A DNA stretch of 64,000 bases from Bacteroidetes bacterium MedPE-SWsnd-G2. GTDB lineage: Bacteria; Bacteroidota; Bacteroidia; Flavobacteriales; Flavobacteriaceae. Positions within the stretch are counted from its first letter, which is position 1; each line of letters opens with the position of its first letter. Position numbers and translations under genes: made by a program. The notes beneath the pieces were generated by a model. The model was not told the DNA's origin, searched no databases, and was given only the letters and a program-made list of their open reading frames with translations. The stretch lies in NCBI GenBank assembly GCA_001874335.1, contig MPDE01000003.1, positions 124,001-188,000 of the forward strand, written 5' to 3'. Shown piece by piece: positions 39,412 to 60,105 of this stretch.

Positions 39412-39637
39412 AAAAATTAATTAGTGAGGTTCTCGACCTCTATTATTAATAAGTCTGCAAATGTACGATATTTTTTTTATTCGTAACATTTTTATATGTA
39501 TAGAGATTATTTCAATAATTATTATACTTTTGGCAATCTTATAGCGTTTTAAGTGTGGTTTTAATAGTGTTTTATGCCATTAGCTCTCATTTGTCGCAAT
39601 AAGTCTAACTGTTATAGTCAATTAAATAATAATTTAC

Positions 39638-56025: not shown

Positions 56026-58056
56026 TTGTCAAAGTCTATTACACTTATTCTCTTTTGTTTATGTCTTCAATTTCATGAAAATGGTTATGGACAAAAATTA
56101 AAAAAAGAGGATAGCTTATCCTTCTATCTAAGTTACTTAGGTAATAACAATACATATACTTTAAAACAGCAGAGTGGTTTTGCTAGTAAAGCGAACCAAA
56201 TAGCTGCAGCCTCCGGCTCCGATTCCTTGAATATTGATGTTAAATTGAAACTATCGGAGTTTTATGAATCTAATGCGGATTCTTTGGGTAAAGAATTTAG
56301 AGCTATAAATTTTGACAACATCCCTTTGGCCAAACGAAAGAAAGACACCCTGTCTCTAGCTAAAATTTACTTCAATTTAGGAGATTATTATAAAAAATCA
56401 GGTGTAAGTGATTCGGCTTATATTAATTATTATGAAAGCGAAAAGTTATATCAATCCCTGAAAAAGAAGTATGAACTTTCAATTGTTTTATTGAATTTGG
56501 CGGTAATCCAAAAAAACGAGAAAGACTTTTTAGGATCTGAAATAACTTCTGTTGAAGGGCTTAAATTACTTGAAAGTTTAGTAGAAAATAATAATATCAG
56601 AAAATACAAGTCTTTTTTTTATAATAATTTAGGCTTGGTGTTTAGTCATTTAGAAGAATTTGATGAAGCTATAAAATACCATAATTTAGCCTTGGGTGTT
56701 AAGCGTAAAATGACAGGTAATACTACAAGAACTATTAATAACTCTAAGAATAACTTGGCTTTGAGTTATAAAATGGCTGGGAAATATGAAGTTGCAATAG
56801 ATATTTATTCTGAAATTTTAGAAGATAAAAACTTAAAACTTAAAAGACCTGATTTTTACGCCTTGGTTTTGGATAACTACGCTAATGCGCTTTACCTCAC
56901 CAATAATTACTCTCAATTACCAGAATTGTATTTAGAAGCTCTGCATATTTGTGAGGAAAAGAAATACGAGTACAACTCTATTATTATCAATCAACATTTG
57001 GCTGAGTTTTACCACGGGAAGAAAGAAAAAGACTCGGCACTGCATTACGCCTATAAGGCAAAGAATATTTCTGAAAAATATCACAATGATGATTTGTTAA
57101 ACTCTTTGTTTTTATTAGCTAAAATTGATGACGAGCATAAAGCTGTGGAGCATTATAACGCTTACATAAAGCTGAGTGATAGTCTCCAGAAAAACGAAAG
57201 ATTAATTCGTAATAAATTCACGCGAATTGAATATGAAACTACCAAAATTGAAGCCGAGAATGAACGAATAACCAAAGAGCGTTTATATCTCGTCTTGTTA
57301 TTAATTGTGCTTGGGGTAATCTCATTATTTGTATATATAATAATTATGCAGCGTACAAAAAACAGAGAGCTGCAATTTGTACAAACACAGCAAGAGAATA
57401 ATGAGGAAATTTATAACCTGATGCTATCCCAACAAGATACGATTGATGAGGCTAGAGCGAACGAAAAAATTAGAATTTCCGAAGAGCTTCATGATGGTAT
57501 TTTGGGACGTTTGTTTGGGACGCGTTTAAGTTTAGATAGTTTGAATTTTTCAGAAGGAAAAGAAGCTGTAAAAAATAGAATAACCTATATCAATGAACTG
57601 AAAAATATAGAGCAAGATATTAGGAAAATATCTCATGATTTAAACACCGATTTTGTTTCAGGTTCAGGTTTTATGGATATCGTATCTGAGATGATTGATA
57701 AGCAGTCGCAAGCATATGGCTACAAGGTTGAGTTTTATCATACCGATGATATTCATTGGGATGAAGTGCCAAATAAAACTAAAATTAACATGTTTAGGAT
57801 ATTGCAAGAATTGATGCAAAATATTTACAAACATGCCGAAGCTAGCCTTGTGAAAATTAGCATTGAACTAAAAAATAATGTAATTTGCCTATGTGTAATT
57901 GATGACGGTGTTGGATTTGAAATTTCCAGAAGCAAGAAAGGAATAGGTATAAAAAACATAACTTCTCGTGTAGAACAAATTGACGCCCAATTACAATTAC
58001 ACTCCCAAATCGGTAAAGGAACTGAAATTAAAATAATGGTTCCATATAGAAAATAA
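56026..58056 (+). CDS. TPR-containing HisKA_3 sensor histidine kinase
   Basis: A 676-residue kinase starting at TTG 56026. The signal peptide (about 1-22, ending GYG-Q) leads into a periplasmic TPR region (about 100-390), with repeats such as YFNLGDYYKKSGVSDSAYINYYESEKLY and YNNLGLVFSHLEEFDEAIKYHNLAL. A single membrane helix follows (about 423-443), then a coiled linker. The HisKA_3 domain carries His489 in RISEELHDGILGRL, and the HATPase domain (about 585-675) has ELMQNIYKHA, DDGVGFE and GIGIKNI. The cognate regulator begins 4 bp later. The ligand is unknown; the preceding small lipoprotein is one candidate. Confidence 0.93.
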   Translation: MSKSITLILFCLCLQFHENGYGQKLKKEDSLSFYLSYLGNNNTYTLKQQSGFASKANQIAAASGSDSLNIDVKLKLSEFYESNADSLGKEFRAINFDNIPLAKRKKDTLSLAKIYFNLGDYYKKSGVSDSAYINYYESEKLYQSLKKKYELSIVLLNLAVIQKNEKDFLGSEITSVEGLKLLESLVENNNIRKYKSFFYNNLGLVFSHLEEFDEAIKYHNLALGVKRKMTGNTTRTINNSKNNLALSYKMAGKYEVAIDIYSEILEDKNLKLKRPDFYALVLDNYANALYLTNNYSQLPELYLEALHICEEKKYEYNSIIINQHLAEFYHGKKEKDSALHYAYKAKNISEKYHNDDLLNSLFLLAKIDDEHKAVEHYNAYIKLSDSLQKNERLIRNKFTRIEYETTKIEAENERITKERLYLVLLLIVLGVISLFVYIIIMQRTKNRELQFVQTQQENNEEIYNLMLSQQDTIDEARANEKIRISEELHDGILGRLFGTRLSLDSLNFSEGKEAVKNRITYINELKNIEQDIRKISHDLNTDFVSGSGFMDIVSEMIDKQSQAYGYKVEFYHTDDIHWDEVPNKTKINMFRILQELMQNIYKHAEASLVKISIELKNNVICLCVIDDGVGFEISRSKKGIGIKNITSRVEQIDAQLQLHSQIGKGTEIKIMVPYRK

Positions 58057-58060
58057 TATT

Positions 58061-58732
58061 ATGAGTGAAGTAATTAAAATACTAATGGTTGATGATCACC
58101 CCATGATCATAGAAGGGTATCAAAATACGCTGTTAGCAACCAAGCACGACGATCAAGACCTACAAATAGAAACGGCTAATAATTGCGATACAGCAAATCA
58201 ATTAATTAGAAAAGCAGGAAGAACAGAAGCCTATGATGTTTGCTTTTTTGATATTAGTTTGCCAGCCTCCCAAGATGGGAGTATAGCCTCTGGTGAAGAT
58301 TTAGCTATTATTGCTCGAGAAGAGTTACCCAATGCTAAAATCATTATCCTAACCATGTTTAATGAATCCTATAGGATTCATAATATTATAAAGTCGATAA
58401 ACCCAGATGGGTTTTTGATTAAAAGTGATTTAACTTCAAGTGAATTGGCTGAAGCTTTTCAGCAAATATTAAAATCTCCACCGTATTACAGTAGTACGGT
58501 TAATAATTATCTTAAAAAATCGATTACATCAGATATTTATATTGACGATATAAATAGAAAAATACTCCATTTGCTTTCTCAAGGTATAAAAACTAGGAGT
58601 TTAAAAGAATATATCGATTTATCTATGAGTGCAATAGAAAAGCGCAAAAAACATATGAAATTGTTGTTTTCGGTCACTGATGGTAAGGACGAATCTCTAC
58701 TTAATGAAGCGAGACAGAAAGGGTTTTTGTAG
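58061..58732 (+). CDS. Response regulator with divergent NarL-like DNA-binding domain
   Basis: A 223-residue regulator. The receiver (about 5-140) has Asp11/Asp12, phosphoacceptor Asp64 (CFFDISLPAS), Thr (IILTM) and Lys (FLIKSD). The C-terminal helical region reads DINRKILHLLSQGIKTRSLKEYIDLSMSAIEKRKKHMKLLFSV (about 165-208), a degenerate LuxR-type helix-turn-helix. It is the cognate partner of the TPR kinase 4 bp upstream. The three downstream modules, each with paired inverted repeats in front of a -7 box, are the most likely targets; this is inferred from position. Confidence 0.9.
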   Translation: MSEVIKILMVDDHPMIIEGYQNTLLATKHDDQDLQIETANNCDTANQLIRKAGRTEAYDVCFFDISLPASQDGSIASGEDLAIIAREELPNAKIIILTMFNESYRIHNIIKSINPDGFLIKSDLTSSELAEAFQQILKSPPYYSSTVNNYLKKSITSDIYIDDINRKILHLLSQGIKTRSLKEYIDLSMSAIEKRKKHMKLLFSVTDGKDESLLNEARQKGFL

Positions 58733-58801
58733 ATTAATGTGTTAAAGTTTACGGGTTTTACGGTATGAGTATGCCTCTGGATGTCTTAATACTGTTGAGT
58801 A

Positions 58802-58840
58802 TTACGGTTTTTCCGCATCAGGTTTACGGTTTTTCCGTAA
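58802..58840 (+). promoter_or_regulatory. Paired inverted-repeat operator, module 1
   Basis: Site A is TTACGG-TTTTT-CCGCAT (58802-58818); site B is TTACGG-TTTTT-CCGTAA (58824-58840), a perfect 6+6 palindrome. Centres are 22 bp apart. The usual -33 TTTG is absent (AACC at 58839-58842), and site B abuts that position. Confidence 0.75.
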
Positions 58841-58861
58841 CCATTTCTTAATTGTGAAGTA

Positions 58862-58869
58862 TATCTTTG
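58862..58869 (+). promoter_or_regulatory. -7 element TATCTTTG, module 1
   Basis: Exact TAnnTTTG match, 21 bp after operator B. Transcription probably starts near 58874. Confidence 0.7.
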
Positions 58870-58873
58870 AGAT

Positions 58874-58988
58874 GTCAACAAATTAATTAATCCCTCCCTT
58901 AGGAGATTTCGTTGAATTAATAGCTAAAAAGTAACAAGCCTAATTATAATTACATGCACGTGATTATTATTAGGCTTAGTTTTATTTT
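58874..58988 (+). ncRNA. Predicted small RNA, copy 1
   Basis: About 115 nt. The 5' hairpin is closed by UCAAC (58875-58879) with GUUGA (58911-58915), extended by AAAU/AUUU with a bulged C. It holds CCCUCCC (58892-58898), which can also pair locally as CUCC/GGAG. After a linker with AAUUAAUAGCUAAAAAG comes the terminator stem (58936-58953 with 58960-58977, one mismatch), loop AUGCAC, then a T-rich tail. The start is inferred from the -7 box. Confidence 0.7.
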
Positions 58989-59066
58989 AGGCACTTCTCT
59001 ATTTGAAAAAAAACTATCTTTTTAACTTCTTTGATTTTCGTTCAAACCTGCTATGAATGCTGTGTT

Positions 59067-59105
59067 TTGCGGTTTTTCCACATTAAGTTTGTGGTTTTTC
59101 CGCAG
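59067..59105 (+). promoter_or_regulatory. Paired inverted-repeat operator, module 2
   Basis: Site A is TTGCGG-TTTTT-CCACAT (59067-59083); site B is TTGTGG-TTTTT-CCGCAG (59089-59105). Centres are 22 bp apart. No -33 TTTG is present at 19 bp from the -7 element. Confidence 0.72.
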
Positions 59106-59126
59106 CTATTTTAGGTTTAAAGCACA

Positions 59127-59134
59127 TATCTTTG
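59127..59134 (+). promoter_or_regulatory. -7 element TATCTTTG, module 2
   Basis: Exact TAnnTTTG match, 21 bp after operator B, as in copies 1 and 3. Confidence 0.7.
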
Positions 59135-59138
59135 AAGT

Positions 59139-59270
59139 GTCAACAAGTCAAATAAGAATTAATTAATCCAAATAATAATCTCCCAATTTAGACCGGTTGA
59201 ATTAATAGCTAAAAAGAACAAACCGAATAGTAAATCTTGTGCAAAAGATTACTATTCGGTTTTGTTTTTT
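59139..59270 (+). ncRNA. Predicted small RNA, copy 2
   Basis: About 132 nt. The 5' hairpin is closed by UCAAC (59140-59144) with GUUGA (59196-59200), continuing through GUC/GAC and AAAU/AUUU. It holds CUCCC (59180-59184). The linker AAUUAAUAGCUAAAAAG matches copy 1. The terminator stem (59220-59238 with 59245-59262) has 14 perfect pairs, a bulged A and 4 more pairs; its loop is GUGCAA, followed by TTTTTT. Confidence 0.7.
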
Positions 59271-59370
59271 AAAAGCTTTCGTGAATGAGGTGTGAAATAA
59301 TAAAATTTCAAAAATAAACACCTAAATCCCAACTTTTATAAACGTGTTAAGCCTTTGTGAGTACTGTGTT

Positions 59371-59409
59371 TTGTGGTTTTTCCGCAACAAGTTTGTGGTT
59401 TTTCCGCAA
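59371..59409 (+). promoter_or_regulatory. Paired inverted-repeat operator, module 3
   Basis: Both sites are TTGTGG-TTTTT-CCGCAA (59371-59387 and 59393-59409), with centres 22 bp apart. No -33 TTTG is present. Confidence 0.75.
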
Positions 59410-59430
59410 CAATTTTATCATTAAAGCATA

Positions 59431-59438
59431 TATCTTTG
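59431..59438 (+). promoter_or_regulatory. -7 element TATCTTTG, module 3
   Basis: Exact TAnnTTTG match, 21 bp after operator B. Confidence 0.7.
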
Positions 59439-59442
59439 AAGT

Positions 59443-59541
59443 GTCAACGAAACATTTTATCCCTCTAAAATATCGTTGTATATATAGCTAAAAGTACAAA
59501 CCCGAAAAACTAGTGCATGAGTTTTTCGGGTTTTGTATTTT
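59443..59541 (+). ncRNA. Predicted small RNA, copy 3
   Basis: About 99 nt, the shortest copy. The 5' hairpin is CAACG (59445-59449) with CGUUG (59474-59478) and an inner stem AUUUUA/UAAAAU around loop UCCCUC (59460-59465). The linker UAUAGCUAAAAG is conserved. The terminator stem AAACCCGAAAAACT (59498-59511) pairs perfectly with 59520-59533; its loop AGUGCAUG contains UGCA. Confidence 0.7.
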
Positions 59542-59628
59542 ATAGTACTATAAAACTAAGCTTTACAAGATATAAAAGGGTGAATTAAATCTAAAAAAAT
59601 TGTAAATTTCCGTACTATAAGATTTTAA

Positions 59629-60105
59629 ATGAAGGTATTATTTCTTTTGGCGTGTTTGTTTTGCTTATCCTCATGCAATTATTTTGATAAAAAGAAAGTG
59701 TACTCAGAAGATTTACTAGAGGAGGAATTAAGGACTTTTAATTGGAATGAGGTAGATGAGTATCCCCTCTTTAAAAGTTGCGATCAAAAGGCTGTAAAGC
59801 AAGTAAAAAAGCAATGTTTTGAAACTACCCTTCGCAACCACTTAAGTAATCGATTTTCAAATTATAATATTGTTGTTTCTGAAGATGTATCTGATACCAT
59901 TGTTTTGAAATTACTTATTGATAAGTATGGTAGTTTATCTATTACTGATATAAAATGTAAACCGACTACTCGGGATCAAATCAATGCTATAGATAGTTTG
60001 TTAGTTGAAAGCGTTAAGGGATTGCCGGAAATATATCCAGCAATAAAAAGAAGTCAAGAGGTTTCAACCTTATTTCATTTACCAGTTTATCTTGAGATCA
60101 GGTAA
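59629..60105 (+). CDS. Lipoprotein of unknown function
   Basis: A 158-residue lipoprotein with lipobox CLSSC (Cys16). The mature part starts NYFDKKKVYSEDLLEEELRTFNWNEVDEYPLFKSCD, and a C-terminal region (about 65-158: LRNHLSNRFSNYNIVVSEDVSDTIVLKLLIDKYGSLSI) resembles a TonB C-terminal-like alpha/beta domain. No partner is obvious. It begins after the small-RNA modules and converges with the beta-barrel-like gene 2 bp away. Confidence 0.75.
   Translation: MKVLFLLACLFCLSSCNYFDKKKVYSEDLLEEELRTFNWNEVDEYPLFKSCDQKAVKQVKKQCFETTLRNHLSNRFSNYNIVVSEDVSDTIVLKLLIDKYGSLSITDIKCKPTTRDQINAIDSLLVESVKGLPEIYPAIKRSQEVSTLFHLPVYLEIR

Follow-up and report, generated by a model that had tools for sequence, protein, structure and literature searches.

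Three repeated modules lie next to the genes for a two-component system in the window, as we call the whole stretch of 64,000 nucleotides analyzed here. The best explanation of the data as a whole, which we consider likely to be correct, is that they are sibling small RNA (sRNA) genes, activated by this two-component system, whose products act in trans by base-pairing. Transcription, binding of the response regulator (RR), activation, base-pairing and targets are inferred, while the anatomy of the modules, their conservation, their linkage to the system, the covariation of their terminators and the uniqueness of their operators are established.

The two-component system

The two protein genes of the system are found upstream of the modules:

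56026..58056, + strand: TPR-type sensor histidine kinase (HisKA_3/HATPase_c), start codon uncertain; open reading frame with Pfam matches to TPR_12, HATPase_c and, weakly, HisKA_3
58061..58732, + strand: NarL/RcsB/VraR-type response regulator; Pfam match to Response_reg, profile and fold matches

The regulator consists of a receiver and a C-terminal helical DNA-binding domain. Its profile aligns with full-length RcsB, VraR and NarL, its AlphaFold model (pLDDT 90) is matched by Foldseek to RcsB, LiaR and NarL, and residues D11, D12, D64 and K121 are invariant in 31 homologues. The phospho-acceptor Asp, the switch Lys and the C-terminal helix-turn-helix expected of a NarL/RcsB-type regulator are all present. 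No Pfam model scores on the C-terminal helix-turn-helix, which we have assigned by means of the profile and fold matches.

Anatomy of the three modules

According to exact matches in the window, the modules span 58803-59545. They share the same layout: after an operator pair come TATCTTTG, GTCAAC and a hairpin at the 5' end, then a linker, AATAGC(T)AAAA, and the terminator. The operators are based on exact matches in the window and on a genome-wide search, and the predicted sRNAs are based on folds and covariance-model matches.

58803-58817 and 58825-58839, + strand: operator pair, module 1
58862..58869, + strand: -7 box of module 1, TATCTTTG, Bacteroidetes-type (TAnnTTTG), exact match; same position in relatives
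58874..58989, + strand: predicted sRNA 1, with a 5' hairpin TCAAC..GTTGA and a C-rich segment, ATCCCTCCC (58890-58898)
58919-58929, + strand: linker of sRNA 1
58936-58977, + strand: terminator stem of sRNA 1, followed by a T-run
59068-59082 and 59090-59104, + strand: operator pair, module 2
59127..59134, + strand: -7 box of module 2, TATCTTTG, exact match
59139..59270, + strand: predicted sRNA 2, with the most diverged core (TTAATCCAAATAATAATCTCCC)
59204-59214, + strand: linker of sRNA 2
59212-59270, + strand: terminator of sRNA 2
59372-59386 and 59394-59408, + strand: operator pair, module 3
59431..59438, + strand: -7 box of module 3, TATCTTTG, exact match
59443..59541, + strand: predicted sRNA 3 (terminator end about 59541)
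59459-59465, + strand: C-rich ATCCCTC of sRNA 3, in an open hairpin loop
59483-59493, + strand: linker of sRNA 3, which reads TATAGCTAAAA

The initial annotation had described three modules of the same layout in a stretch without protein genes. The exact matches, fixed spacings and hairpins confirm that the repeats are real, and no open reading frame of at least 60 amino acids is present in 58733-59628. It had also given an identical distance from operator to -7 box in all three; this is correct, but the gap between the second operator and TATCTTTG is 22 bp (3/3 modules), not 21 bp. The palindromes have 15 bp, with the form TRYGGTTTTTCCRYA, and their starts are 22 bp apart in 3/3 modules. The gap between TATCTTTG and GTCAAC is 4 bp, also in 3/3. 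GTCAAC starts at 58874, 59139 and 59443, followed in every module by a variable core, GTTGA or GTTGT, (A/T)ATAGCTAAAA and a hairpin with a T-run. The layout is not due to chance, since the module strings do not occur again in the 64 kb window and the operator pair is found nowhere else in the genome.

When folded as single-strand RNAs of 115, 131 and 99 nt, the three sequences beat all their dinucleotide shuffles, with z values of -5.0, -6.5 and -6.7. Covariance models detect sRNAs 1, 2 and 3 with E values of 7.9e-7, 1.3e-4 and 2.9e-7 (model from 39 RNAs) and of 2.0e-8, 9.7e-7 and 8.5e-8 (two-clade model); these models were short-calibrated and the values are rough. No RNA data are available, so that actual transcription of the modules is an inference.

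Conservation beside the response regulator

As relatives we have taken the best 80 RR matches in named genomes, with 73-85% identity. They come from Winogradskyella, Psychroserpens, Mangrovimonas, Meridianimaribacter, Gaetbulibacter, Ichthyenterobacterium and other genera. A kinase homologue is found upstream of the RR in 80/80 of these loci, and a palindrome pair with the 22-bp spacing is located 20-117 bp after it, also in 80/80. Nearly all have a TAnnTTTG/A-like box at the same offset after the palindromes. Directly downstream of the orthologous RR, a homologous RNA is present in 80/80, for example GUCAACAAGAAUUAAUUAAUCCCUCUUAAGUAAUUGUUGAGUUAAUAGCAAGAA plus a terminator.

These loci were chosen by RR similarity, so the last figure is conditional on the RR. 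A survey of 299 unselected genomes of the family is not. A covariance model was built from the RNAs of 39 relatives and run over these genomes, the RR protein was searched in the same set, and both results were joined by position. At E<=1e-4, 78 of the 80 RNA matches have an RR orthologue upstream of them on their own strand, at a median distance of 154 bp; the two strong matches without an adjacent RR are in genomes G292 and G285. Conversely, 82 of the 85 RRs with at least 60% identity have the RNA. As for the other three, in G015 the contig ends inside the RR, in G211 (locus L377) a diverged module can be recognized by eye, and in G096 there is none. Several RRs at 54-60% identity have diverged modules which retain AATAGCA. 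According to the initial annotation, a lack of conservation next to homologous kinase/regulator pairs would have refuted its proposal of three sRNA genes beside a two-component system. The conservation found, in 80/80 relatives and in 78/80 survey matches, strongly supports that proposal, transcription being inferred. The kinase-regulator-sRNA cassette is present in roughly one quarter to one third of the sampled family genomes.

A second model, built from the RNAs of both clades described below, gives no convincing match outside the family in an order sample and in a class sample of 295 genomes. In the order sample, all strong matches belong to family members in which the RNA had been found before; in the class sample, only the window's own genome is matched. 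Some weak covariance-model matches (G188, G202, G252 and G182:3421976, E from 7e-4 to 2e-3) look spurious, since they have neither operators nor RR. A separate observation is locus L376/L177 (G306:C3:43216-44440), which has two sRNA copies and an RR with in-frame stops (two TGA, one TAA); this is either a decaying system or the result of assembly errors.

The copy number is almost always one in the 80 relatives. Only L110 has two copies, and the window has three. The three copies in the window are monophyletic (support 97/97) and the two copies in L110 form another clade (97/97), so they correspond to independent local amplifications. The array in the window is, as inferred from these clades and copy numbers, a lineage-specific triplication of a putative sRNA which is normally single-copy. 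Three diverged copies within one lineage amount to a natural experiment on the duplication of sRNAs.

The next gene in 75/80 relatives is a convergent membrane-protein gene on the opposite strand. In the window (59545-59628) this gene is missing after the array, which is directly followed by a lipoprotein-like open reading frame (59629-60105); the latter is located further downstream in 20 relatives.

RNA structure

In 43 diverse members, 95.6% of the cells pair as in the named structure. The same set shows compensatory changes at 9/10 pairs of the terminator helix, and the covariation score of the whole structure is 0.471, versus 0.213 when shuffled and at most 0.13 when slid. Covariation in the 5' helix is weak because this helix is nearly invariant in the alignment; one diverged RR-adjacent member, L377, has a compensated 5' helix (UCAAU/AUUGA). 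The core AUCC, GUUG and AUAGC is invariant across the family. UCCCU is retained in most members and is interrupted in copy 2 of the window. In 118 members, the median unpaired probability is 0.97 for CCCU and 0.98 for AUAGC, both being open in almost all members, while the closing GUUG is paired.

In a second clade, whose RRs have about 65% identity, AUAGCA is retained together with the UUAAUCCCUC loop and the UUGUUGA helix. Members of this clade often have just one palindrome, in the proximal position; in L159, the example we have counted, this palindrome lies 22 bp before the -7 box. In this clade (L159-L192, for example L165, sRNA at 1881-1988) the terminator loop AGGUGAGAGAC is conserved and its stem covaries. 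Together with the adjoining GG, the loop reads GGAGGUGA, the complement of the 3' end of 16S rRNA, UCACCUCC. It is possible that this loop is a second functional site.

Operator uniqueness and proposed mechanism

We have searched eight genomes for the operator pair, allowing up to three mismatches. It is found only at the sRNA promoter in 8/8, with no control matches. The genome of the window (3.03 Mb) has three pairs, all of them in the array, also without control matches. Given this uniqueness, the RNA is probably what the two-component system mainly, or even exclusively, controls directly. This suggests a system that would work mainly or only through the RNA; the pairing of RR and operator is deduced from linkage and uniqueness, without binding data. 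Further regulator sites with a single palindrome could still exist elsewhere. For example, a lone perfect palindrome, TACGGTTTTTCCGTA, is found at position 1043 of L374 (G000:C5:35542), between two open reading frames, with no second site and no sRNA, and is possibly one such site.

The modules are free-standing noncoding units, as required of sRNAs controlled by a two-component system: they have a promoter-like box at a fixed distance, a covarying terminator and no open reading frame, although their transcription is inferred. In the mechanism we propose, the TPR sensor kinase would phosphorylate the NarL-type RR, and two RR dimers would probably bind the two palindromes, separated by about two helical turns, on the same face of the DNA. 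Once bound, the RR would bring RNA polymerase to a promoter that has a TAnnTTTG box but no -33 box that can be recognised. The predicted RNA, of about 100-130 nt, would start at about GUCAAC. A hairpin closed by UCAACA/UGUUGA would expose the C-rich loop, followed by a single-stranded AAUAGC linker, and transcription would end at the intrinsic terminator. Most likely, the RNA would base-pair in trans with mRNAs through the C-rich loop, the AUAGC linker or both.

The ribosomes of Bacteroidia do not recognise Shine-Dalgarno sequences (PMC9976891), so the usual block of translation by a C-rich loop cannot simply be assumed. For the same reason, silencing or activation may take place in some way other than masking of Shine-Dalgarno sequences. 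A more specific proposal is that the whole two-component system is dedicated to one sRNA, with the C-rich loop and the AAUAGC linker acting other than by masking of the LhrC/RsaE type; we entertain this idea without quite favouring it.

Target searches

Simple seed-complement searches in 8-12 genomes have not revealed any conserved mRNA target close to a start codon. The perfect complement GAGGGATTAAT was searched in 12 genomes; besides the sRNA gene there are only scattered sites, and no gene recurs by inspection. The pattern GAGGGATT-N(1-14)-ATG has 120 matches in eight genomes, versus 57 for the control. We have inspected 100 of these places: where the frame downstream is open, the site almost always falls within a longer coding frame, so that a codon effect probably accounts for the excess. 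Recurrence is limited to two orthologous pairs, and in both the sites are internal. The complement of the second-clade terminator loop, TCTCTCACCT, shows no clear excess over the control and no shared gene.

Alternative explanations

The RNAs might mainly titrate an RNA-binding protein, as RsmY and RsmZ do with RsmA under GacA, instead of base-pairing. The logic would match that of GacA (PMC4866733), with a NarL-type RR whose only recognisable promoters are at sRNAs; the invariant unpaired AAUAGC could be a protein site, and several copies would increase capacity. On the other hand, there is no CsrA/RsmA gene: PF02599 is absent from the genome, while the controls E. coli, B. subtilis and T. 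maritima are positive, which makes the Csr-sponge version unlikely. Each RNA has one copy of each motif, in contrast to the repeated motifs of a sponge, and most relatives have a single gene. Titration in general seems to us an unlikely explanation.

The operators are the most regular part of the modules and occur only here, as would be the case if the palindromes served as decoys for the RR, or for autoregulation at the DNA level, with an incidental RNA sequence. A DNA decoy, however, has no need for an invariant RNA core (AUCC, GUUG, AUAGC) or for compensatory changes in the terminator, and we find this very improbable. We give slightly less credit still to the modules being leaders or attenuators of the downstream gene at 59629-60105 and not free sRNAs. 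This gene is on the same strand and the terminators end about 90 bp upstream of it, but the RNA is still conserved in the 75/80 relatives where the next gene is a different one, convergent and encoded on the opposite strand. Moreover, a single leader would have no use for three strong terminators in a row. Finally, short independent units with a promoter-like box and a terminator could also be mRNAs for tiny peptides, which can practically be discarded: an ATG-to-stop frame of at least 15 codons is present in only 1/118 members, and any ATG in the first 60 nt in only 20/118.

Comparison with known systems

Sibling sRNA genes activated by the two-component system remain our preferred reading, and systems of this kind are known in other bacteria. 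At gathering threshold, the matches to Rfam 15 are limited to a tRNA and an S16 leader for the window and to tRNAs for 11 relatives. The S16-Flavobacteria ribosomal protein leader (RF03138) is at 39416-39450 on the - strand, well above threshold. The initial annotation had singled out the Flavo-1 motif (RF01705) for comparison. This comparison is negative: neither the window nor the 11 relatives contain a match at gathering threshold, and there is none even at E<=10 in 58700-59660. What Rfam does return at E<=10, weakly, are plant microRNAs, MicC and trpB, all of them terminator look-alikes. Flavo-1 is also found in Flavobacteria and its function is also unknown, but this RNA has a fixed promoter, unlike Flavo-1. 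In the sections of the F. psychrophilum transcriptome study that we could consult, Flavo-1 matches are indistinctly sense or antisense to transcribed regions; Rfp sRNAs are reported as well, with no mention of such a cassette in those sections (PMC9723704). A literature search, with subscription papers mostly outside its scope, has not found any description of this RNA.

LhrC1-5, activated by LisRK in Listeria monocytogenes, are multicopy sibling sRNAs with UCCC exposed in a loop (PMC4132741). Such exposure is also found here (CCCU, median 0.97 unpaired in 118 members), and LhrC copies, like those in the window, differ in and around the C-rich segments. With Rfam, the region gives no match to LhrC even at E<=10. 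In contrast to LhrC, this RNA has an unrelated sequence, belongs to an unrelated phylum, is stably linked to its RR, is usually single-copy, has one C-rich site and is found in a phylum whose ribosomes do not use Shine-Dalgarno sequences.

In Streptococcus, CiaR of the CiaRH system activates the related csRNAs through operator promoters (PMC3091779). They are a related set activated by an RR, as we infer for the copies here, and they are able to pair with translation initiation regions. CiaR recognizes a direct repeat, TTTAAG-N5-TTTAAG, at 15 S. pneumoniae promoters including those of protein genes; here the operator consists of two palindromes with a 22-bp spacing, and the search has given no further pair of sites. 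LhrC and csRNAs are described as acting on Shine-Dalgarno or translation initiation regions. The ribosomes of Bacteroidia do not recognise Shine-Dalgarno sequences (PMC9976891), which leaves undecided how this RNA would act.

GacA is a NarL-type response regulator. In Pseudomonas, the sRNAs RsmY and RsmZ are its sole direct targets (PMC4866733). They titrate RsmA, of the CsrA family, whereas here there is no CsrA in the genome and no repeated protein-binding motif. In the same phylum, FopS and GibS of Bacteroides thetaiotaomicron form a paralogous family of multicopy base-pairing sRNAs acting near start codons (PMC11697453), and the copies in the window are paralogous as well. Unlike these, they are dispersed, have about 65-70 nt, canonical sigma-ABfr promoters and another sequence, and no cognate two-component system has been reported.

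The Flavobacteriaceae are abundant marine bacteria whose regulatory RNAs are hardly characterised. A cassette that has a single arrangement of operators and a single RNA core is a clean, testable system for sRNA action without Shine-Dalgarno pairing. In summary, we file this RNA as a new sRNA family within the known kind of two-component-controlled sRNAs: it would work like LhrC/LisRK, csRNA/CiaRH or RsmYZ/GacA and belongs to none of them.
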